Assembly: GCF_001663175.1 (NCBI RefSeq)
Contig: NZ_CP016033.1
Location: 1,550,001 to 1,614,000, forward strand
Direction of reading: 5' to 3'
Origin: Erythrobacter neustonensis
Lineage (GTDB): Bacteria > Pseudomonadota > Alphaproteobacteria > Sphingomonadales > Sphingomonadaceae
Length of the DNA stretch: 64,000 nt
In this document: positions 41,663 through 55,213 of the stretch, piece after piece
How the letters are laid out: every line of letters begins with the position of its first letter
Position numbering within the stretch: the stretch's first letter is position 1
Translations under genes and position numbers: made by a program
The notes under the pieces: model-generated
What the model was told of the DNA's origin: nothing
What the model saw: only the letters and a program-made list of their open reading frames with translations
Databases searched by the model: none

Positions 41663-41736
41663 GCGGGTGTAGCTCAATGGTAGAGCAGAAGCTTCCCAAG
41701 CTTACGACGAGGGTTCGATTCCCTTCACCCGCTCCA
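41663..41736 (+). tRNA. tRNA-Gly (anticodon CCC)
   Basis: The 74-base gene folds as a full cloverleaf. The acceptor GCGGGTG pairs with CACCCGC, and the CCA end is encoded. The D arm is GCTC/GAGC. The anticodon loop TTCCCAA gives anticodon CCC. The T arm is GAGGG-TTCGATT-CCCTT. The integrase gene begins 141 bases downstream, so the tRNA 3' end (about 41711-41736) is a likely attachment site of the following island. Confidence 0.95.
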
Positions 41737-44065: not shown

Positions 44066-47000
44066 TTGAGACTGGAGTCCTTCTTGCGGGTAATCGATAC
44101 CACAGGCCGCAACCGACCTATCGACTGGCTCGTCGGCGGTTCTGCCCCTCTCGACGCGATGACCAGTGATTTGTCCATCTTCGGAGCTGCTGCCGTCTTC
44201 GACGTAAAGGGGCAAAGGAAACTGGATAGATTGCTGATCGGAGCAACCCACCCAGTTGCGAACCTGGTTGGAACCGCCAATGATCGCGGGCGGCGTAATC
44301 GCCTTGAAGCAAGGGCGCTCTGCAACAACTTGGCGCGCGTTATCGCTGAGGCTCAGGTCCGGCAGACACGTCTACCGCTCACCCAATCGCTCGTCATTGG
44401 CGGCGATGTTGCGCTGCTAGGGAACTGTCCCCTGACCACCGGCGGGCTGGGCATTGCACCGCAAGATGCGCTCGGACTGGTTCAGGCCGCGGATGGCGCT
44501 GACGAGATCGAGGGTCTGAGACAGTGGTTCCGGGACCTGTGGCGACAGGCAGATCCCGATGGGGACGGCGTGTCTTTCCTGCGCGCGGCTATGAGCGACG
44601 GCGCTAGCCAGCACGAGCCGAATGGCATCTATCTACAGGCCCTGTTCCACCTCTTCGCCGAGATGGAAGAGGGAACCGATGAAAACCGGATCGTTGATCC
44701 GGCAACAGGGATTCGCGACACGACGATCTGGTCGAAGCTCTACCGCTTCCAGCGTGATGGCGTAATAGGTGCCATCGACAAGCTGCAACGCTTTGGGGGG
44801 TGCATTCTCGCTGACAGTGTCGGTCTCGGGAAGACATTCGAGGCGCTGGCGGTCATCAAGTATTTCGAGCTGCGGAACGCCCGCGTGCTCGTTCTGGCTC
44901 CGAAGCGCCTTCGCGAGAATTGGACGCTCTGGACGCAGAACGACGTGCGCAACATGCTCGTCGGCGACCGGTTCTCGTTCGATGTCCTGAACCACACTGA
45001 CCTATCCCGCGAGCAGGGACAGTCCGGTGAAATGGATCTCAGCCACATCAACTGGGGCAATTACGACCTCGTGGTCATCGACGAGAGCCACAATTTCCGG
45101 AACCGCCCTGCCGGGAAAGGCGAGCGCGAGAGCCGCTACGACAAGCTGCTCAACGCCGTGGTGAAAGCCGGTGTCAAAACCAAGGTTCTCATGCTGTCGG
45201 CGACGCCGGTCAACAACCGGCTCAATGACCTCAAGAACCAGATCGCCTTCGCGACCGAGGCCAACGACCAGGCTCTCGCCGGCCATGGAGTGCCGAGCAT
45301 CGCCGGCACGGTGCGTATCGCGCAAGGCCAGTTCAACCGGTGGCAGGAATTGCCGGAGGCACACCGCACACCGGCAAAGCTGCTCGAGATGCTGGGCTTC
45401 GACTATTTCCGTCTGCTCGACCTGCTGACCATCGCGCGGAGCCGGAAGCATATCGAGAAATACTACGGCACCACCGAAACCGGCACCTTCCCGGAGCGGC
45501 TCCAGCCGCAGAACATCTACTCGGACGTGGACCTTGCTCGCGCCTTTCCTCCGATAGGCGAAGTGAACAACGAGATCAGGCGCCTCAAGCTGGCCGCCTT
45601 CGCACCCCTGCGATACGTCATGGAGGATCGGCGCGAGGCCTATGACCGGCGATACAGCCAGCAGACCGGTTCGGGCGCCAGCGTATTCCGCCAGCTCGAC
45701 CGTGAAGAGAGCCTGGTCGCCCTCATGCGGATTAATTTGCTCAAGCGCATGGAGAGTTCCGTCCATGCCTTTGCGCTCACGATCGAGCGGCAGCTCACCG
45801 CGGTTGACGAATTGATCCGGCGTATCGATGCGCATGACGAGAGCGTCGATGCGCCATCGATCGATGACCTTGAAGAAGATGATCCCACCCTCGAGCAATT
45901 GGGGGTCGGCAAGAACATCCGCGTCCTGCTGTCCGATGCCGACCTAGTGCGCTGGCGGCAGGATCTGGCCGAGGACCGCGAACGCCTGCAGCGGCTTCTG
46001 CGTCAGGCCCAGCAGGTTGGCCCGGCACAGGACGCCAAGCTTGCCGACCTGAAGCAGCTGATCGCCCGGAAGCTCTCCGCCCCCTACAATGACAGCAACG
46101 TCAAACTGCTCGTGTTCACCGCCTTCGCGGACACAGCCAAATACCTCTATGCGCAGCTGGCCGAGACCTATCCCCGGCCGATGGCGCTGGTCACCGGGTC
46201 CGGCCGGAACAAGACCACCCACCCGAAGCTGCGCGCCGATCTTGCCTCGATCCTCACCGCGTTCTCCCCGCGATCGCGTTCGCGGCCAGAAGCGCTCGCG
46301 CAGGAGCCGGAAATCGACCTCGTCATCGCCACCGACTGCATCTCCGAGGGCCAGAACCTTCAGGACTGCGACTGCGTGGTGAATTACGACATCCACTGGA
46401 ACCCCGTTCGCATCGTCCAGCGGTTCGGCCGCGTCGATCGGCTCGGGTCGCCGAACAGCGTCATCCAGCTCGTCAATTTCTGGCCGAACATGGACCTCGA
46501 CAGCTACATCGGCCTCCAACGCAGCGTATCCGGCAAGATGATGCTGCTCGACGTGTCGGCTACGGGGGAGGAGAACCTGATCGAGGCGCAGGCAGGCGAT
46601 GCCATGAACGACCTCGAGTATCGCCGCCGCCAGCTCGAATCGCTGCAGGAGCGGGTGATCGATCTGGAGGATCTGTCCTCCGGCGTTTCCATCACCGATC
46701 TGACGCTCAACGACCTCCGGCTCGATCTCGCCCGCCTGTCGCCCGAGGAGCGGGAGGCCATCGCCCGCCGCATGATCGGCACCTATTCGCCCATCCCGGC
46801 GTCCGACGATTTCCCGGCCGGCGCCCTGTTCCTGCTCCGCGCCGCCACACCGAACGCCGAACGTGCGCTGGCCAAGGGCGATCCGCTCTACCCCCATGCG
46901 CTTATCTACATCGGCGAGGACGAGCGCGTGATCCTGCCTCCCAGTCAGCCCAAGCGGATGCTCGACCTGCTGCGGCTCGCGTCCAGCACGCCCGCCGAGG

Positions 47001-47227
47001 TTCAGGCCAAGGCGTGGGAGCAATTCGATGCCGAGACCCGTGAGGGCAGCCGCATGGACAAATACCAGAGCCTGCTCGCCGCCGCGATCCGGGGCGTGAC
47101 TGGCAAGGCCGAGGAACGCGCCGTCGAAAGCCTGTTCACCACCGGCGGCGTTGAGGGCGCGGGCGGGGAAAGCGGGCTTGATGATTGGGAAGTCATCACC
47201 TGGCTCGCCATCCTGCCCCCCCGATAG
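44066..47227 (+). CDS. SNF2/RapA-type DNA helicase of a restriction-like cassette
   Basis: The protein has about 1050 residues. The helicase core has SVGLGKTFEALAVIK (motif I, about residue 250), VVIDESHNFRN (motif II), LMLSATPVNNRL (motif III), and the second lobe TDCISEGQNLQDCDCVV with RIVQRFGRVDRLGS (motif VI). The N-terminal 230 residues contain LLGNCPLTTGGLG, which faintly recalls the GSSNFT-type end of a phospholipase-D-like domain, but no H-x-K pair is visible. No ATG fits; TTG 44066 or TTG 44084 (preceded by GGAG) are possible starts, so the N-terminus may be shortened. It is first of five tightly packed genes with DUF4391, coiled-coil, mod and res. Confidence 0.83.
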   Translation: MRLESFLRVIDTTGRNRPIDWLVGGSAPLDAMTSDLSIFGAAAVFDVKGQRKLDRLLIGATHPVANLVGTANDRGRRNRLEARALCNNLARVIAEAQVRQTRLPLTQSLVIGGDVALLGNCPLTTGGLGIAPQDALGLVQAADGADEIEGLRQWFRDLWRQADPDGDGVSFLRAAMSDGASQHEPNGIYLQALFHLFAEMEEGTDENRIVDPATGIRDTTIWSKLYRFQRDGVIGAIDKLQRFGGCILADSVGLGKTFEALAVIKYFELRNARVLVLAPKRLRENWTLWTQNDVRNMLVGDRFSFDVLNHTDLSREQGQSGEMDLSHINWGNYDLVVIDESHNFRNRPAGKGERESRYDKLLNAVVKAGVKTKVLMLSATPVNNRLNDLKNQIAFATEANDQALAGHGVPSIAGTVRIAQGQFNRWQELPEAHRTPAKLLEMLGFDYFRLLDLLTIARSRKHIEKYYGTTETGTFPERLQPQNIYSDVDLARAFPPIGEVNNEIRRLKLAAFAPLRYVMEDRREAYDRRYSQQTGSGASVFRQLDREESLVALMRINLLKRMESSVHAFALTIERQLTAVDELIRRIDAHDESVDAPSIDDLEEDDPTLEQLGVGKNIRVLLSDADLVRWRQDLAEDRERLQRLLRQAQQVGPAQDAKLADLKQLIARKLSAPYNDSNVKLLVFTAFADTAKYLYAQLAETYPRPMALVTGSGRNKTTHPKLRADLASILTAFSPRSRSRPEALAQEPEIDLVIATDCISEGQNLQDCDCVVNYDIHWNPVRIVQRFGRVDRLGSPNSVIQLVNFWPNMDLDSYIGLQRSVSGKMMLLDVSATGEENLIEAQAGDAMNDLEYRRRQLESLQERVIDLEDLSSGVSITDLTLNDLRLDLARLSPEEREAIARRMIGTYSPIPASDDFPAGALFLLRAATPNAERALAKGDPLYPHALIYIGEDERVILPPSQPKRMLDLLRLASSTPAEVQAKAWEQFDAETREGSRMDKYQSLLAAAIRGVTGKAEERAVESLFTTGGVEGAGGESGLDDWEVITWLAILPPR

Positions 47228-47232
47228 CCCCC

Positions 47233-47997
47233 ATGACCATCACGCCGCACACCATCCGCGAGGCTCTGGCCCTGCCGCCCGGGGGCGATCCGGCCCGGCG
47301 TCTGCCGAAGGACGTTCTGGCCGAGCACGGTGCCGCGCACGCAGCCGACCGCAAGCTGATCGACAAGGCAATCGAGCGGCTGGACTGGTGGGCCACGCTT
47401 TCGCCCACCACCATCGGCGTTGCGGCGGCCGCTGATGACGACCGGCCCGTTCCCGCCATCCAGCTGCTCGCCCTCACTGCGCGGGCCGAGCCGACCCAGC
47501 GGCTGCTCACAATCATTCACCGCGCCATTCCCGTGCCGATCATCCTGCTGACCGCTTTGCCGGGCGGTGCAGGCACGCGCGTTTCATTCGCGCCCCTGCG
47601 CCGGGCCGAGCGGATTGGCGACAAGATGGTGGTCGAGCGGCTGGTCGTCGCCCCTGACTGCACCGATGCGGCAGAACCGGCGACCGCCGCTTTCATTGCC
47701 AGCCTCGCCGTGCCAGCGCTCCCCCGCCTCAACCTGCGGCTCCTCTATGATGGACTGGTCGAGCGGGCCGAGGCGCTGGAGATTGCGCGGCTGACCGGCC
47801 AGCCTTTCCGCCTTGTTGATGATCCCGCCGCCCGCCGCGAGGCGCTCGCCCGCTATCGTGAGGCGGAGGCGGCATGGTTGGCGGCACGGGCGGCGGCCAA
47901 ACGCGAAAAGGCCCTCGCCAAGCAGATTGCATTGGGCGCGGAGGTGCGGCAATTGCGCAGCCAAGTCGATGAAATCTTGCAGCAACTGGAGGATTGA
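47233..47997 (+). CDS. DUF4391 domain protein
   Basis: The 254-residue protein matches the DUF4391 pattern: LPKDVLAEHGA, a following helix with DRKLIDKAIERLDW, then TIGVAA, LLALTARA, IIHRAIPVPIILL and a C-terminal charged helix. The last 60 residues form a likely coiled coil (KREKALAKQIALGAEVRQLRS). This family is usually found beside helicases and type III restriction genes, but its job is not known. It lies 5 bases after the helicase and overlaps the next gene (TGATG type). Confidence 0.85.
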   Translation: MTITPHTIREALALPPGGDPARRLPKDVLAEHGAAHAADRKLIDKAIERLDWWATLSPTTIGVAAAADDDRPVPAIQLLALTARAEPTQRLLTIIHRAIPVPIILLTALPGGAGTRVSFAPLRRAERIGDKMVVERLVVAPDCTDAAEPATAAFIASLAVPALPRLNLRLLYDGLVERAEALEIARLTGQPFRLVDDPAARREALARYREAEAAWLAARAAAKREKALAKQIALGAEVRQLRSQVDEILQQLED

Positions 47998-48404
47998 TGG
48001 GCAAAGGGGGCTATATTGGTGGCGGCACGATCATCGGCCCGCATACGCCCGGATGGTTCGGGAAACCGCGACCCAAAAAGAAGAAGAAGCCCAAGCCGGA
48101 AGTCGGTGAGGCCATGAAGGCCAGTGCGAAGGCCGCCAAGCATGATCACAGCGGCGCAGCGGCCGCCAAGCCTGCCGGAAAGCGGACGCACCGGCGCCGA
48201 TACGCCCCGCAGCCTGTGCTGGCAAAGCCCAAGCGGGAGCTGTCCGCTGCCGACGAACGCCGCATCGGCAAGCTTCGGCTGCACATCAAGGGTCTGGAGC
48301 AATTGCGTGACGGCTACCAGAAGCAGATCGACAGCGCGCTCGCCGAGCTGAACGGCGTGTTGAAAGAATACGGCCTGCCGCTAGAGCGGAGCGGCCAGAA
48401 ATGA
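47997..48404 (+). CDS. Small Lys-rich coiled-coil protein in the restriction cassette
   Basis: The 135-residue protein has a Gly-rich start (MGKGGYIGGGTIIGPHTPGW), a very basic middle (GKPRPKKKKKPKPE and KRTHRRRYAPQ), and a C-terminal coiled coil (about residues 85-128). The basic part could bind DNA or RNA. No family was recognised. It overlaps DUF4391 by one base at its start and mod by four bases at its end, so it belongs to the operon. Confidence 0.7.
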   Translation: MGKGGYIGGGTIIGPHTPGWFGKPRPKKKKKPKPEVGEAMKASAKAAKHDHSGAAAAKPAGKRTHRRRYAPQPVLAKPKRELSAADERRIGKLRLHIKGLEQLRDGYQKQIDSALAELNGVLKEYGLPLERSGQK

Positions 48405-50365
48405 CGGGACCGATAATGAACGACACCACTTCCGATGGCGAGCGCGCCATCCCCAAGATTACCCGCGATGACGAGGCTGCGGGGAGCGGGGATCTGGTGC
48501 GGGAGAATGTGGAGCGGCTGAAGGCGCTGTTCCCGCAGATCGTGACCGACGGGAAGGTCGATTTCGATGTGCTGCGCCAGCTGCTCGGCGACGAGGTGGA
48601 GGAAGGCGAGGAGCGTTACGGGCTGAACTGGAAGGGCAAGCGCCGGGCGCGGGCCTTCGCCATGACCCCGAGCCTCGGCACCCTGCGCCCGGCGCCCGAG
48701 GACAGCGTGGACTGGGACACAACCCAGAACCTGATGATCGAGGGCGACAACCTCGAGGTGCTGAAGCTGCTGCGCCGGTCCTATGCTGGCAAGGTAAAGC
48801 TGATCTACATCGATCCGCCGTATAATACTGGCAATGATTTCGTTTACAGCGACTCCTACAAGAGGCCGCTTCAAAACTACCTTGAGAAAACAGGACAAGT
48901 GGCCATTGAGGGTGGAGTTGCGACATCAAATGCCGACTCTTCAGGCCGCTACCACACGGATTGGTTGAACATGATGTTCACCAGGCTGCTGATTGCAAAA
49001 GAACTTCTTAGAAATGACGGTGTAATATTCATTAATATTGGCGATGAAGAAGTAAGTAATTTGACTTCCATCGGTAAAGAAATATTTGGTGAAGAAAATT
49101 TCCTTGCCACGATAGCGTGGCAGAAAAAATATGGTGTTTCCGCAGACTCGAAGGGCATTCCCCTAATGCAGGACTACATCATAGCGCTTCAAAAATCAGA
49201 TCAATTTTGTCCTGGCCTTCTACCCCGCAGCGAGAAGCAAGAAGCTCTTTACAACAATCCCGACAATGACCCGCGCGGGCCCTGGACTTCGGGCGATCTT
49301 TTACGTAATGAATATAGAGAGCGGGATCAGTTTGAAATAATTGGACCCACAGGCAAATCACATCGGCCGCCAATAGGAACAAGCTGGCGCCATCCTCAAG
49401 AACAAATCGAGCGTATGATTTCCGAGAACCGCATTTGGTTTGGCTCGGATGGTAAAGGGGTTCCGCGCGTCAAACGGTTCCTATCGGAAACCAAGCAGGG
49501 AGTGGTTATTTCAGGATGGTGGCCGCATACAGAGACTGGACATAACGATGAAGCAAAAAAAGAAGTTAAGAGACTTCTTGAGAGTGACGTATTCCAAACT
49601 CCGAAGCCGATAAGATTGCTCAAGCGTATTTTTCAAACCGCTGATGTTTAAGGCGATGACATCATTCTAGATTTCTTCGCAGGGTCGGGCACCACGGCTC
49701 ATGCGCTGATGGATTTCAATAGAGAAACCGGCAACTCTGCTCGGTCAATTATTGTGCAGTTGCCTGAAGTCCTTGACCCAGCGAACAAATCGCAAAGGCT
49801 GGCCGCTGATTTTGCGGATGCTATTCGCCGTCCGAGGAACATCGCCGAGCTGACCAAAGAACGCCTCCGCCGCGCCGGGCAGAAAATCCTCGCCGAGCAT
49901 CCCGATGCGAAGGTCGATACCGGCTTCCGCGTCTACAAGCTCGCCACGTCCAACCTGAAGCCGTGGCAGCCCGATCCGGACAATCTCGAAGCCAGCATCC
50001 TCGATGCGGTCGACAATGTCCTGCCCGACCGCACCGAACACGACCTGCTGGTCGAGCTGCTGCTCAAGACCGGGATCGATCTCATCATGCCCGAAGAACG
50101 GCGCACGATCGCCGGGCAGACCGTCCACGCGCTCGGCGGCGGGGCGCTGATGGTGTGCCTCGGCAATATCGGCCCCGATGATGTCGAAGCGCTGGGACAG
50201 GGCATGGCCGATTGGCTCGACGAACTCGATCCGACCCAGACCACCCTCTATTTCAAGGATGTGGGCCTCGGCACGGAGAACAACCGTTCGGCCACCAAGG
50301 CCAATCTCGCCGCAATCCTGCGCCAGCGTCACGGCGACCGCATCGCCAAGATCGCGAGCATCTAG
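48401..50365 (+). pseudogene. mod: Type III restriction-modification DNA methyltransferase (mod), interrupted by an in-frame stop
   Basis: The reading frame encodes a 654-codon beta-class adenine methyltransferase, broken by TAA at 49649-49651 (codon 417). The first part has the catalytic motif IDPPYNTGNDF (D138-Y141). The SAM-binding motif DFFAGSGTT lies at codons 424-432, just after the stop and in the same frame, so this is a nonsense change and not a frameshift. The next ATG (49709) comes after that motif, so re-initiation would not restore it. The segment from about 48,820 to 49,750 is strikingly AT-richer than both ends. This matches exchange of the target-recognition region. Sequencing error or rare read-through cannot be excluded. 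Confidence 0.85.
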
Positions 50366-50368
50366 GGC

Positions 50369-53300
50369 GTGGCCAGCACCATGAAGTTCGTCTTCGAACC
50401 CGACCTTGCGCACCAGAAGGCCGCGATCGACGCGGTGGTGGACCTGTTCGCCGGACAGCAGGAGCGCCAGTCGCTGTTCACCATCGCCCCCGGCCAGATC
50501 GCGGGCGAGCTCGAATACAACGAGAAGCTGCTCGGCTACGCCAACCGCTTCGACCTGCTGCCCGAACAGGTGCTGGCGAACCTCCACGCGGTGCAGGAGC
50601 GCAACGCCCTGCCGCTCTCGCCCGAGCTCGAGGTGAAGGGCGACAAGCGCAGCGGTGAGGGCGACTATGGCATGGACTTCACCGTCGAAATGGAGACGGG
50701 GACGGGCAAGACCTATGTCTACCTGCGCACGATCTTCGAGCTGAACCGGCGCTATGGCTTCACCAAGTTCGTGATCGTGGTGCCCTCGGTCGCGATCCGC
50801 GAGGGGGTGAAGAAGACGATCCAGCAGACCCGCGACCACTTCCGCCAGCTGTATGACGGGGTGCCGTTCGAAAGCTTCGTCTATGACAGCTCGGACCTGT
50901 CGCGCATCATCGACTTCGCCTCGTCCTCGTCGATCCGGGTGATGATCGCGACGGTGCAATCGCTGGGTTCGAAGGCGGCGGTATTCCAGCAGGCGCGCGA
51001 GCAGACGCGCGACATTCCGGGCGTGGAATGGGTGAAGAGCACGCGCCCGATCCTGATCGTGGACGAACCGCAATCGACGGGGCGGACAGCGGACAGCGCC
51101 GGGCGCAAGATCATGCGGGCAATGGAGCCGCTGGCGACCATCGGTTATTCGGCGACCCATGAATTCGCCTTCCACCCCATCTACCGCCTGGACGCGTTCG
51201 ACGCCCACGACCGGGGACTGGTGAAGTCGATCGAGGTCGACGGTGCCCGAATTCAGGACGCGGAGAACAGCCCCTATGTGAGGCTGCTCGAGGTCGAAGT
51301 GCGCAAGGGCCAGCTCCCGCGCGCGCGAATCGAAATTGCCAGGCAGCAGGCGGGTTCGGTCTCGCGCAGGTCGGTATGGGTCGGCGATAATGACGTGCTG
51401 TCGGACACGCACATCTCCGGCGGGCGCACGATCTATAACGACTACCGCATCGGCATCATCCAGAAGATGGGCCGCAGCGCAGGGACGATGCAGCTGATGG
51501 TGCCAGGCCACGGCGTGGAGACGCTGGCGGTCGGCGAAAGCTGGGGCGATGTCGACCAGGCGTCCCTGGCACGGGCGATGATCCGCCAGACCATTGAGCA
51601 TCATTTCGACAAGGAGCTGCGGAACGGTCCGCTCGGCATCAAGACGCTGAGCCTGTTCTTCGTGGAGGCGGTGAAGGACTACCGCCTGTATGACGAGCAG
51701 GGCAATGCCTCGCCCGGCCCGCTGGCGATCGCATTCGAGGAAGAATACGCGAAGCTCGCTGCCCTGCCGAAATACCAGACCCTGTTCTCCAAGGTGCCCG
51801 CGAACGCCGCAACCGCGCATGGGGGCTACTTCTCACAGGACAAGAACGGGCGCTTCACCGAGCCGTCGTTGAATGAGGCCGGGGAGCTGTCCAACGCGCG
51901 CTCGCGGGAAGAGGCAGAGCGCACCTTCGATCTGATCATGAAGGATAAGGAAAAGCTGCTCGACGAGGCCGAGCCGCTGCGATTCCTGTTCTCCCACTCG
52001 GCCCTGCGGGAAGGCTGGGACAACCCGAACGTGTTCCAGATCTGCAGCCTGCGGGAGATGTCGTCGGAGACCCGGCGCCGGCAATCGATCGGCCGCGGGC
52101 TGCGGCTCTGTGTGGACAAGCACGGGCAACGGCGGCGCGATGAGGGCCTGAATGTCCTGACCGTGGTGGCGCAGGAAAGCTTCTCCGAATACGCCGAGGG
52201 GCTTCAGCGCGAGATGGAGAAGGAGCTGAAGGTCAAGCTGGGGCTGGTGACCGAGGACCTGTTCGCCGGGCTGACCTACCCGATGCCGGGCGGCGAGGTC
52301 GGCACGCTCAAGGTGCGCGACAGCCGCGCCATCTTCGAGGGGCTGCTGAAGGCCGGGCTGATCGAGGACAACGGCAAGGCCAAGGAAGAGCTGCGAACTG
52401 CGCTCGCAACCAATACCGTCCCGCTGCCGGATGATCTGCCGGAAGAAGCTCGCAAGCTGGTCCGTGAACGCCTGACCCGGATCACGCGTAAGCTTCCCGT
52501 CCGCGATGCGCGCGCGAAAGGGCAGGTCAAATTCAATCTCGCCGTGCTGGAGGGGCATGACTTCCAGCAGCTGTGGAAGCGGATCAGCCGGAAGACGACC
52601 TACCGCCTCAAGTTCGACGATGCCGCCCTTGTGGCGCGATGTGCGAATGCGCTTGCGGACATGCCTCGACCGGGTGAGGCCCGGGTGACCTTCGAATTGG
52701 CCGACATGCTGATTGGCCGAGAGGGCGTGACCGGCGAGAAGCGGAGCACGTCGGCACCGCAGCGTCTTGTCACGGCCAAGCTCGACCTGCCCGATCTGCT
52801 CGGCGAGCTGCAGAACCGGACAGAGCTGCCGCGCAAGGTGATCGCGGAAATTCTTGTTCAATCCGGTCGGCTCGAAGACGCGACGATCAATCCGTCGGCC
52901 TTCGTCGACGCCGCGGCTGCGATCATCCAGGCCGGAAAGCGTCTGATGATGACGGACGGGATCGTCTACAAGCCGTTGGACGACTGGTGGGCACAGGACC
53001 TGTTCCGCGAGGAGGAGGAGGTTCCGCTCGACCGCATGGTGCAGGTGGCCCATGCCCCGCTCGACCACATCGTGACTGACTCGAACATCGAAGCAGCGAT
53101 TGCGCAGGCGCTCGACATCAGCGGCGCGATCAAGGTGTTCGCCAAGCTTCCACAGGGCTTCAAGGTTACGACGCCTCTGGGCACATACAACCCCGACTGG
53201 GCGATCGTGCGCGAGTATGAGGACCGGGAAGACGTCTACCTGGTGAGTGAGAGTAAGGGTGACTTGAACACGCTACGAGAGGCTGAGAAGGCGCAAATCG

Positions 53301-53383
53301 CTTGTGGCAAGGCGCATTTCGCCGCACTTGAGGTGCCATTTGTAACGGCGACGAATCTGGACGGCATTCTCAGCCAGGTGTGA
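50369..53383 (+). CDS. res: Type III restriction enzyme helicase-nuclease subunit (Res)
   Basis: The 1004-residue protein has a superfamily 2 helicase with METGTGKTYVYLRTI (Walker A, residues 111-115), ILIVDEPQ (residues 232-235), TIGYSATH, ALREGWDNPNVFQI and QSIGRGLRL. The C-terminal PD-(D/E)xK nuclease has YNPDWAIV followed by VYLVSESKG. Start is GTG 50369 or ATG 50381, 3-15 bases after the mod frame. Res cuts DNA only together with Mod, so the stop in mod probably makes this gene harmless as well. The gene itself looks intact. Confidence 0.92.
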   Translation: MASTMKFVFEPDLAHQKAAIDAVVDLFAGQQERQSLFTIAPGQIAGELEYNEKLLGYANRFDLLPEQVLANLHAVQERNALPLSPELEVKGDKRSGEGDYGMDFTVEMETGTGKTYVYLRTIFELNRRYGFTKFVIVVPSVAIREGVKKTIQQTRDHFRQLYDGVPFESFVYDSSDLSRIIDFASSSSIRVMIATVQSLGSKAAVFQQAREQTRDIPGVEWVKSTRPILIVDEPQSTGRTADSAGRKIMRAMEPLATIGYSATHEFAFHPIYRLDAFDAHDRGLVKSIEVDGARIQDAENSPYVRLLEVEVRKGQLPRARIEIARQQAGSVSRRSVWVGDNDVLSDTHISGGRTIYNDYRIGIIQKMGRSAGTMQLMVPGHGVETLAVGESWGDVDQASLARAMIRQTIEHHFDKELRNGPLGIKTLSLFFVEAVKDYRLYDEQGNASPGPLAIAFEEEYAKLAALPKYQTLFSKVPANAATAHGGYFSQDKNGRFTEPSLNEAGELSNARSREEAERTFDLIMKDKEKLLDEAEPLRFLFSHSALREGWDNPNVFQICSLREMSSETRRRQSIGRGLRLCVDKHGQRRRDEGLNVLTVVAQESFSEYAEGLQREMEKELKVKLGLVTEDLFAGLTYPMPGGEVGTLKVRDSRAIFEGLLKAGLIEDNGKAKEELRTALATNTVPLPDDLPEEARKLVRERLTRITRKLPVRDARAKGQVKFNLAVLEGHDFQQLWKRISRKTTYRLKFDDAALVARCANALADMPRPGEARVTFELADMLIGREGVTGEKRSTSAPQRLVTAKLDLPDLLGELQNRTELPRKVIAEILVQSGRLEDATINPSAFVDAAAAIIQAGKRLMMTDGIVYKPLDDWWAQDLFREEEEVPLDRMVQVAHAPLDHIVTDSNIEAAIAQALDISGAIKVFAKLPQGFKVTTPLGTYNPDWAIVREYEDREDVYLVSESKGDLNTLREAEKAQIACGKAHFAALEVPFVTATNLDGILSQV

Positions 53384-53786: not shown

Positions 53787-54614
53787 TCATGCCGCCAATT
53801 GCTTCGGTCTCGTCAGCTTCGAGAGCCAAGCATTGGTCGGAAACCGTTCGGCAAGTGCGGTGACAACCGCTTCGTCACCAGCATCCGGGAAGCCAGGCGC
53901 CGATCCGGTCGCAAGGAAGTAGCGCCATGCGACCTGCGCGATTGTGCAGACGTCGGCCACCACCTGGGTCTCAACATGGTCCCATGCGCCGTGCCGAATC
54001 GCGAGTGAGATGTCCTTGGAAGGCATGGGCTTCGACACCACGCCGATCGCCTCGCAGAACTCCGGCAGGTGGACGTAGTGACCCAGCGAGCGCACAGCGC
54101 TCGCCAGATCCAGTCGCGTGCGTGCAAACGGTGCCGGATCGCGCAGCTGCGGAGGCAGGATCATCCCTCGCTCGATCGCGGCGCGCTTGAGGCAGAGGAA
54201 ATCCTTGGTTTCCCCGCCCCAGCTTACGAGCCGGGCATCCTGGAACGTCGCACACATGGTGAAGAAGGCGCTGACGATGTCCGCTTCGGGGCGGTTCGTG
54301 ATTGCTTCGGCATGGGTGAGGACAGGCCGGTCCATGTCCGGTGAGATCGTCAGCATGCACCATGCGCCTGCCACGATGCGGTGGAACGGCCACCGAACGA
54401 AGCCTTGCGTGGGATCGCTTTCCGCGACCTGATAGCGCTTGAACGCGTCGGTATCGTAGAGATACTCGAAATCGCAGATGATCACGCGCTGCCATGGGCT
54501 GGCACAGGCTCGATGGGCGAGGAACATTGCGGCTTCTTCGCCAAGCGCATTTGTCCGATGGCGAAGGTTTGCATCGTGCTCGGCAGGCAGAGTATCGGAA
54601 GTGTGGTCGGTCAT
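53787..54614 (-). CDS. Predicted 3'-5' exonuclease (PolB-like, DEDD fold)
   Basis: The 275-residue protein resembles the 'predicted 3'-5' exonuclease related to DNA polymerase B' family. VIICDFEYLYD gives the D-x-E of motif I, LVSWGGETKDFLCLKRAAIE the second motif, and later aspartates (RTRLDLASAV, VVADVCTIAQVAWRY) the third. Start ATG 54614 overlaps by one base the TAA of the next upstream gene (TAATG), so the two are coupled. Proteins of this type often sit on plasmids and integrative elements; the substrate here is unknown. Confidence 0.7.
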   Translation of the reverse strand: MTDHTSDTLPAEHDANLRHRTNALGEEAAMFLAHRACASPWQRVIICDFEYLYDTDAFKRYQVAESDPTQGFVRWPFHRIVAGAWCMLTISPDMDRPVLTHAEAITNRPEADIVSAFFTMCATFQDARLVSWGGETKDFLCLKRAAIERGMILPPQLRDPAPFARTRLDLASAVRSLGHYVHLPEFCEAIGVVSKPMPSKDISLAIRHGAWDHVETQVVADVCTIAQVAWRYFLATGSAPGFPDAGDEAVVTALAERFPTNAWLSKLTRPKQLAA

Positions 54615-55213
54615 TAGAACATCTCCGTGGGGCCGAATGCGCCGAGAGGGCGTGCGCGCTGCAATGCGGACCATGCCTGATAAGCTGCGGCGATCCGGGT
54701 TCGCTCGTGCATGTTTGGGCTCGAGAAAAGGTGGACGAGGTAGAGGGCCTGCGCCTCCGCATCGCAGCAGCGGGCCTGCTCCGCCGTGATGTCGTCCCTA
54801 CCCGCGCGCCGGATGCCATATTGCCTCGCCACCGCTGCCATCGCTTCCTCGGGCACCGTGACAGGACGTACGTCGGCATCTGGCCTGATGGCGGCCAGCA
54901 CCTGCGCATCGGTGGGTACCGGCATGGGCCGCCCCCGTGACAGATGGCGAATAAGCCCGCGCGGCAGTCGAGGTGCCCGCATGATGACCCGCGCGCCCGG
55001 CGGGATCATCGCCGCGATGTGCTCGATCGCAGCCTGACGCGAAAGTGCGGGCAGGACGACGGCCGTGCGGACGTCCAAGGTGGTGGCTTCCTCGTCATCG
55101 GTGACGACGAAGGCACCGGCGGCAACGGCTCGGCTGGCGGGCGCCAGTTCTGTGCAGTCGCGGATGATGGACAGCGCGCAGGTGACGGCTGGTGGGAAGT
55201 CAAAGGTATTCAT
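54614..55213 (-). CDS. Accessory protein of unknown function (199 residues)
   Basis: Start ATG 55213 follows TCTGGAGA on the minus strand. The protein has an alternating strand/helix N-terminal half (TAVVLPALSRQAAIEHIAAMIPPGARVIMRAP) that could be a Rossmann-like fold. The C-terminal helical half is ...AEAQALYLVHLFSSPNMHERTRIAAAYQAW. No membrane segment or signal is seen. It is coupled to the exonuclease gene and about 70 bases after the next accessory gene. No family was recognised. Confidence 0.6.
   Translation of the reverse strand: MNTFDFPPAVTCALSIIRDCTELAPASRAVAAGAFVVTDDEEATTLDVRTAVVLPALSRQAAIEHIAAMIPPGARVIMRAPRLPRGLIRHLSRGRPMPVPTDAQVLAAIRPDADVRPVTVPEEAMAAVARQYGIRRAGRDDITAEQARCCDAEAQALYLVHLFSSPNMHERTRIAAAYQAWSALQRARPLGAFGPTEMF

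Follow-up and report, generated by a model that had tools for sequence, protein, structure and literature searches.

What are a helicase and a DUF4391 protein doing in front of the two genes of a type III restriction-modification (R-M) system? The question is raised by a stretch of 64,000 nucleotides from Erythrobacter neustonensis (NZ_CP016033.1, positions 1,550,001 to 1,614,000, from a single-contig genome of 3.09 Mb), here called the window. A sequence-only reading had described five packed genes on the forward strand, coding for an SNF2-type helicase, a DUF4391 protein, a small lysine-rich protein and the type III proteins Mod and Res, and all five are present where it had placed them (Table 1). 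In type III R-M, dimers of Mod recognise the site and Res cuts, and these systems are recognised by methylation of one strand and by cleavage about 25 bp from paired inverted sites. The conserved core of the cassette consists of the helicase, DUF4391, Mod and Res. Our best explanation, which we hold with moderate confidence, is that the window carries a decaying member of a widespread four-gene type III variant, in which the helicase and DUF4391 would together form a second motor that docks onto the modification-restriction complex.

The spacing from helicase to DUF4391, small protein, Mod and Res is +5, -1, -4 and +3 bp, and the frames of the helicase, DUF4391 and Res are open. The motifs SVGLGKT, DESH, SATP, SEGQNLQ and QRFGRVDR are all found in the helicase. 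Res consists of a superfamily 2 (SF2) motor with a C-terminal endonuclease domain, and has the motifs TGTGKT, DEPQ and PD..ESK. By profile, both parts of a type III enzyme are there: Mod (MTase_III), from an interrupted gene, and Res, with its SF2 ATPase and endonuclease domain.

Table 1. Features of the cassette and its surroundings, in window coordinates.
Feature	Coordinates	Strand	Remarks
tRNA-Gly(CCC)	41663..41736	+	beside putative integrase gene
Probable tyrosine integrase, 690 aa	41878..43950	+	PF20172 at residues 6-55; adjoins tRNA-Gly
SNF2-type helicase	44084..47227	+	start at TTG 44084 from alignment with relatives; start in open reading frame (ORF) list TTG 44066
DUF4391 protein, 254 aa	47233..47997	+	ATG start; PF14335 E 3.3e-33; core gene, helicase partner
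Small basic protein, 135 aa	47997..48404	+	ATG start; gene of the DUF4391-Mod slot, outside the core
Type III Mod gene, interrupted	48401..50365	+	PF01555 and PADLOC MTase_III in both pieces
Mod N-terminal frame	48401..49651	+	DPPY motif, target-recognition region
Low-GC middle of mod, target-recognition region	about 48761..49840	+	GC per 120 bp
In-frame TAA interrupting mod	49649..49651	+	between target-recognition region and FAGSGTT motif
Mod C-terminal frame	49652..50365	+	FAGSGTT motif
Type III Res	50369..53383	+	GTG start; PF04851 and PF19778; PADLOC REase_III 910 bits; motifs (see text)

The same order of helicase, DUF4391, Mod and Res is found in Alpha-, Beta- and Gammaproteobacteria, Actinomycetota and Bacillota, on a methanogen plasmid and in the Erysipelothrix phage phi1605. 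It is present in Paraburkholderia pOLGA2, in E. coli pLAO18, CFT073, H6 and MB64, and in Shewanella, Acinetobacter, Raoultella, Mycolicibacterium and Methanomethylovorans hollandica; Listeria has the same order with Mod annotated in two pieces. The neighbours in Listeria and phage phi1605 match PF14335 (E 1.5e-8 and 1.7e-36), though the annotators gave them different names. At a coverage of at least 80%, the cassette of pLAO18 was found in nine of 5,426 E. coli genomes. Plasmids of Acetobacter and Desulforapulum have the first three genes, with Res interrupted or a fragment, and on an Enterococcus plasmid a transposase lies between the helicase and the DUF4391 homologue. In E. coli pLAO18 (L111) the cassette is located near repA and a homing-endonuclease gene on a plasmid of 112 kb, and this plasmid may be a phage-plasmid.

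The association was counted from the DUF4391, the helicase and the Res sides. At a threshold of E 0.001, PF14335 has matches in 19 of the 397 family genomes searched, in 11 of 385 at class level (nine of them above the curated cut-off) and in 23 of 398 at phylum level, the three samples overlapping slightly and each including the window genome. From these, 50 genome regions were taken around DUF4391 genes and a limit of 60 bits was applied. Where at least 3.3 kb of upstream sequence was available (42 sampled loci), the helicase precedes DUF4391 in 41; Mod is downstream in 40 of the 41 with at least 2.5 kb downstream, and Res in 34 of the 36 with at least 7 kb. The exception among the 42 is L075, with a weak DUF4391 and with Mod and Res present, where no helicase was found. 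Three loci below the 60-bit limit, L075, L107 and L108, are outside the downstream counts. Neither L107, where a contig end cuts the locus and Mod and Res are present, nor L108, a sub-cut-off match with none of the genes, is counted at all. At L090 DUF4391 lies at a contig end with neither Mod nor Res. One genome, G907, contributes several contigs, L025 and L102 look like one locus, and a scan of the genome contigs gave only 6 loci.

From the helicase side, 77 loci on viral contigs were taken from the best 80 of 102 matches. A DUF4391-like sequence follows the helicase in 63 of the 65 with at least 900 bp downstream, Mod was found in 52 of 58, Res in 45 of 54 and all four genes in 43 of 54. 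From the Res side, 35 strong matches to PF19778 (E 2.1e-20 or better, weaker ones being left out) were taken from 299 genomes of the phylum; DUF4391 lies within 15 kb on the same contig in 14, is missing in 7, and the remaining 14 are cut by contig ends. The four proteins also diverge together. Across 45 four-gene loci, and computed without a species-tree control, the pairwise protein distances of the six pairs correlate at 0.787-0.907 (helicase-Res 0.907, helicase-DUF4391 0.847, Mod-Res 0.852), against a maximum of 0.241 under permutation (500 permutations per pair). Genes of this sort do cluster in defence islands, and the cassette might for that reason be a set of chance neighbours; the same order and tight spacing across phyla, together with the neighbourhood counts, refute this, and we regard it as barely conceivable. 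The earlier suspicion that the helicase and DUF4391 belong with mod and res was thus well founded.

Helicase and DUF4391 overlap by 4 bp in 28 of 42 genome loci and are more than 240 bp apart in one of the 42. The junctions on either side of mod are wider than 240 bp in 14 of 43 loci (DUF4391-Mod) and in 12 of 38 (Mod-Res). Larger negative gaps are artefacts of start choice, since the ORF finder takes the first start codon. Scanning of 20 neighbour proteins, 18 encoded in the slots, one behind res in L175 and one upstream in L173, gave GmrSD (L092, L115), Schlafen AlbA_2 (L082, L098), Fic (L101, L084), a zeta-toxin-like ATPase (L084), RhuM (L086), Abi_C (L078), DUF2130 (L094, and by annotation also E. 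coli H6), a GGACT protein (L059) and DUF2442 (L093). An OLD-type AAA_15 protein is found in E. coli H6 and a UvrD-like helicase in Raoultella (L173). Three of the scanned neighbours have no family and that of L103 has a sub-cut-off match only; in the opened slots of L085, L095 and L100 no recognisable gene was found.

It would seem possible, if on the unlikely side, that the helicase and DUF4391 are a backup module, a separate effector against phages that block or evade Mod-Res, which shares with them only the operon, much as PrrC guards the type I system EcoprrI. This is the main rival to a docked motor. It is favoured by the helicase-DUF4391 junction being rarely opened, and those flanking mod often, and by the candidate backup genes in the mod slots (GmrSD, Fic, RhuM, Schlafen AlbA_2, OLD-type AAA_15, Abi_C and zeta-toxin-like). 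The association with Mod and Res is nearly complete, however, where a free module should more often be met by itself, and the distances of the helicase correlate most strongly with those of Res.

Several observations on the slots and flanks may be added. The DUF4391-Mod and Mod-Res slots carry known defence or toxin-like genes (for example L092, L098, L101, L118 and L173), and type I operons likewise carry such genes in internal slots. L289 (10728-15210) is one of the few loci with an interrupted helicase-DUF4391 junction; the pair is split there by two genes whose first residues, the only part read, suggest an OLD-type ATPase and a UvrD-like helicase. Directly 5' of the helicase, L173 has a WYL-domain regulator (PF13280, 8096-9001); the genes at this position in E. 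coli CFT073 (L117, 8096-9001) and H6 (L118, 8021-8926) are equally long and annotated as helix-turn-helix regulators.

The sequence-only reading had proposed a larger defence system of five genes. The helicase and DUF4391 do belong to the core, and the lysine-rich protein does not. This small basic protein has 31 lysine and arginine residues versus 12 aspartate and glutamate residues in its 135, and carries a MGKGGYIGGGTIIGP stretch at its N-terminus. It matched no Pfam family and gave a weak match of 33 residues to PADLOC SP_VI (E 1.2e-5). A protein search at E 0.001 found 20 relatives including the protein itself, and a family model built on it matched at E 0.01 in nine of 298 genomes of the family. 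Away from the cassette, too, there are small proteins that resemble it at the N-terminus, and it is therefore an add-on outside the core. At L196 the family model matches within an operon that also encodes a BPTD_3080 restriction endonuclease and a Hhe/ProA-like protein, the latter scoring below the cut-offs of its models. Small proteins of the family that otherwise differ (window 47997-48404, P0140, L191-L197) share a motif like G(K/R)GGYxGGSTxIGPxxxWF at the N-terminus; among the neighbours of such proteins are recombinases (by reading only), a MzaB-like ATPase below cut-off (L194) and the BPTD_3080/Hhe-like operon of L196.

The window helicase scores 348 bits against the PADLOC model C3a139 'HKD+Snf2' (PDLC01075), for which the helicases of pLAO18, CFT073 and Listeria give 405, 421 and 394 bits. 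The likeness to C3a139 is a comparison by protein model and label alone. The nuclease activity that the label implies was considered for the helicase and rejected: the catalytic HxKx4D is present within the first 260 residues of only one of 62 helicases (at residue 232 of that protein), HxK alone is found in 10, and the N-terminal alignment shows no conserved HxK. As HxKx4D is not conserved, no nuclease activity is expected in the N-terminal region. HKD-helicase fusions are known from BREX-related systems (PMC12839542).

The DUF4391 protein of the window matches PF14335 with 116 bits (cut-off 29.9). Two confident AlphaFold2 models of DUF4391, with mean predicted local distance difference test (pLDDT) values of 86.1 (window protein) and 86.5, predict a small domain of alpha-beta type and, at the C-terminus, a long helical hairpin. 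Neither model gave a Foldseek match to the PDB at E 0.001 or better, which is in itself no sign of a new fold. Among the insignificant rows (E 0.1-1.2), and amid many unrelated ones, SPARDA chains (at E 0.1-1 with both models) and tRNA-splicing endonuclease recur; we take the SPARDA effector and the tRNA-splicing endonuclease chains to be restriction-endonuclease-like, which gives a hint only of such a fold for DUF4391. In the VIA comparison almost all of the matches listed cover the C-terminal helices only, and no sequence relative was found in the PDB (best E 1.1). The residues conserved among 68 DUF4391 proteins include Lys25 (in 64), Trp51 (67), Glu74 (60), Lys121 (56) and Arg122 (62). Within the open main texts, the literature on DUF4391 came to one line of a table with no bearing on the matter.

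The same helicase is also found with a different class of methyltransferase. Of the 63 DUF4391 matches at viral loci five reach only 21-30 bits (L252, L254, L257, L265 and L276), and four of these are type IIG-like proteins. Among the viral loci with 6.5 kb of downstream sequence, 11 have an incomplete set, and in four of these (L252, L254, L257 and L276) the helicase is followed by one of these type IIG-like methyltransferases, with one more gene between in L254. The helicases of the four loci are 39-42% identical to that of the window over about 1000 residues. The methyltransferases are 1200-1560 residues long, and at residues about 105-230 match PF14335 weakly (E 8.6e-5, 9.7e-5, 1e-3 and 0.028); alignment of DUF4391 with this N-terminal region by hhalign gave a probability of 76 and an E value of 2.2e-5 over 91 columns. 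A more distant pair of helicase and type IIG-like enzyme is found on a Planktothrix plasmid (L292), its helicase being 30% identical to that of the window. These loci are like the cassette in the helicase family and, in the four viral cases, in the DUF4391-like N-terminal region. They are unlike it in having an Eco57I/N6_Mtase methylase (PF07669, PF02384) as one long polypeptide, with no Mod or Res. A RecF/ABC-type ATPase follows in L276 (by Pfam) and, by first residues only, in L254 and L257.

The helicase may thus keep a DUF4391-like partner even when the class of methyltransferase changes. The simplest reading of this is that DUF4391 may be the link of the helicase to the methyltransferase, whether separate or fused. 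A wider proposal would make DUF4391 a nuclease-like domain that has diverged and shares its ancestry with the N-terminal part of the type IIG methyltransferases. With the SNF2 helicase it would form an exchangeable motor-effector module paired with two classes of R-M system (type III Mod-Res and type IIG), and a sizeable proportion of the type III systems now counted as two genes would be such four-gene machines; we consider this proposal unlikely. The occurrence of the helicase beside type IIG-like enzymes would also be in keeping with a separate effector that shares only an operon with Mod and Res.

The classical two-gene type III systems (EcoP1I/EcoP15I) have in common with the cassette a Mod with DPPY and FAGSGTT, a Res with an SF2 motor and C-terminal endonuclease, and mod before res. 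The cassette differs from them in its two further, tightly spaced upstream core genes and in the slots on both sides of mod. No published description of the helicase-DUF4391-Mod-Res set was found in open main texts, a scope outside which lie supplements, subscription papers and REBASE, and the sequence-only reading is supported in this respect. DISARM, like the cassette, has a SNF2 helicase near a methyltransferase. The window helicase, though, scores only 152 bits where the NCBIfam DrmD cut-off is 610, and none of the other cassette proteins scanned reached a comparable score for a DISARM member; they matched type III families, DUF4391 or no DISARM family.

Eco86II, BspHIV and more than 500 genomes have been described as carrying a further helicase-like ATPase gene 5' of mod (Murray, 2021; PMC8259958). 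In E. coli NCTC86 the region 5046030-5055447 codes for a helicase, a methyltransferase and a DEAD-box protein, with a gap of 20 bp between helicase and methyltransferase and no DUF4391 between them; from this layout we take it to be Eco86II. Over 969 columns its helicase shares 46% identity with the DrmD-like one of L152 (7457-10306, minus strand; PDLC02619, 705 bits), which is directly beside type III mod and res without DUF4391, L152 being one of the seven Res loci that lack it. With the window helicase that of NCTC86 aligns in two main regions only, of 220 and 166 columns, at about 30% identity. When this kind was sought in E. coli by way of Salmonella L176, NCTC86 was absent among the matches listed (60 of 248 and 45 of 4,483). 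That the cassette is simply the published helicase-linked N4-methylcytosine (m4C) type III system would be suggested by the extra SF2 helicase 5' of mod and res in both. In NCTC86, however, this helicase is of another family, DrmD-like, and adjoins the methyltransferase without DUF4391. Assuming that the locus is Eco86II, the cassette is therefore a second, distinct helicase-linked kind, and we think its identity with the published system very improbable.

The published systems also bear on whether the helicase and DUF4391 might serve modification or control, aiding Mod on host DNA or restraining Res from it, for example at replication forks. The division of labour does vary, two characterised type III systems needing Res for methylation (Murray, 2021; PMC8259958). 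On the other hand, in the helicase-linked m4C kind Mod alone methylated fully (PMC8259958), and the sequence of the cassette has no pointer to control. Such a role would seem rather improbable.

The in-frame TAA divides the mod gene of the window into two open frames. Both pieces are recognisable, PADLOC MTase_III giving 463 and 199 bits and PF01555 being slightly below the Pfam cut-off in the second. Among 50 in-frame mods, found by motif in the collected loci and not deduplicated, a stop between DPPYN and FxGSGTT occurs in two, the window genome and L021, at different places. The GC content of the middle of mod is 0.35-0.54 per 120 bp versus 0.61-0.72 on both flanks, and the identity to the Mod of L020 is 55% for the N-terminal and 82% for the C-terminal piece; the target-recognition middle has probably been exchanged horizontally. 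The stop would leave Res without its recognition partner and hence restriction off, so the window copy is probably silent. The earlier advice to test an intact relative for phage protection was apt, given this interruption.

Relatives, too, have decayed on the side of Mod and Res: besides the stop in L021, the Res of L020 diverges after about 60 residues, and in L073 Mod is cut and Res absent. That the helicase and DUF4391 frames are open where Mod or Res is broken (the window; L020, with Res truncated; L073) speaks for a separate effector. The loci were found through DUF4391 or the helicase, however, so this asymmetry may in part be one of ascertainment.

In the four-gene variant that we favour, Mod dimers would recognise the site and Res would cut, as in other type III systems. 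The helicase and DUF4391 would work as a single unit, an additional DNA motor driven by ATP, with DUF4391 docking the helicase onto the methyltransferase-containing complex. Unmodified DNA would then, beyond being cut at paired sites, be translocated, cleared of bound proteins or unwound, and so be destroyed more fully. Several points weigh against this. Docking is a guess from co-location, as DUF4391 has no significant fold match, and the similarity of DUF4391 to the type IIG-like proteins is below the Pfam cut-off in all four, with four sequences only. The window DUF4391 has Ala74 and Leu121 where Glu74 (60 of 68) and Lys121 (56 of 68) prevail elsewhere. Seven of 21 assessable Res loci are without DUF4391, and the correlated divergence was computed without a species-tree control. 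In the different system of the Murray type, methylation did without the helicase, and the active enzyme preparation did not contain it (PMC8259958), so a helicase may be dispensable for cutting.

The cassette had also been called part of an integrase-linked island. This link is one of position only: the cassette lies beside a putative integrase, presumably marked as such by PF20172, and a tRNA-Gly, but no attachment repeat was found. There is no exact repeat of the tRNA of at least 14 bp downstream in the window, an 18-base pattern from the tRNA 3' end has a single occurrence genome-wide at up to one mismatch, and the tRNA-Gly loci of relatives, checked for an attachment site, show no second copy. 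Downstream of the cassette, on the opposite strand (53787-54674), is a gene with a weak match to PolB-related 3'-5' exonuclease (PF10108, E 1.6e-5).

Type III systems are described as Mod and Res. With two further coupled genes at 14 of the 21 Res loci that could be assessed in the phylum sample, half of the machinery would be uncharacterised in much of the family. DUF4391 gains with this a first testable role, and what a second motor contributes to restriction can be asked directly where the shared helicase stands beside type IIG-like enzymes.

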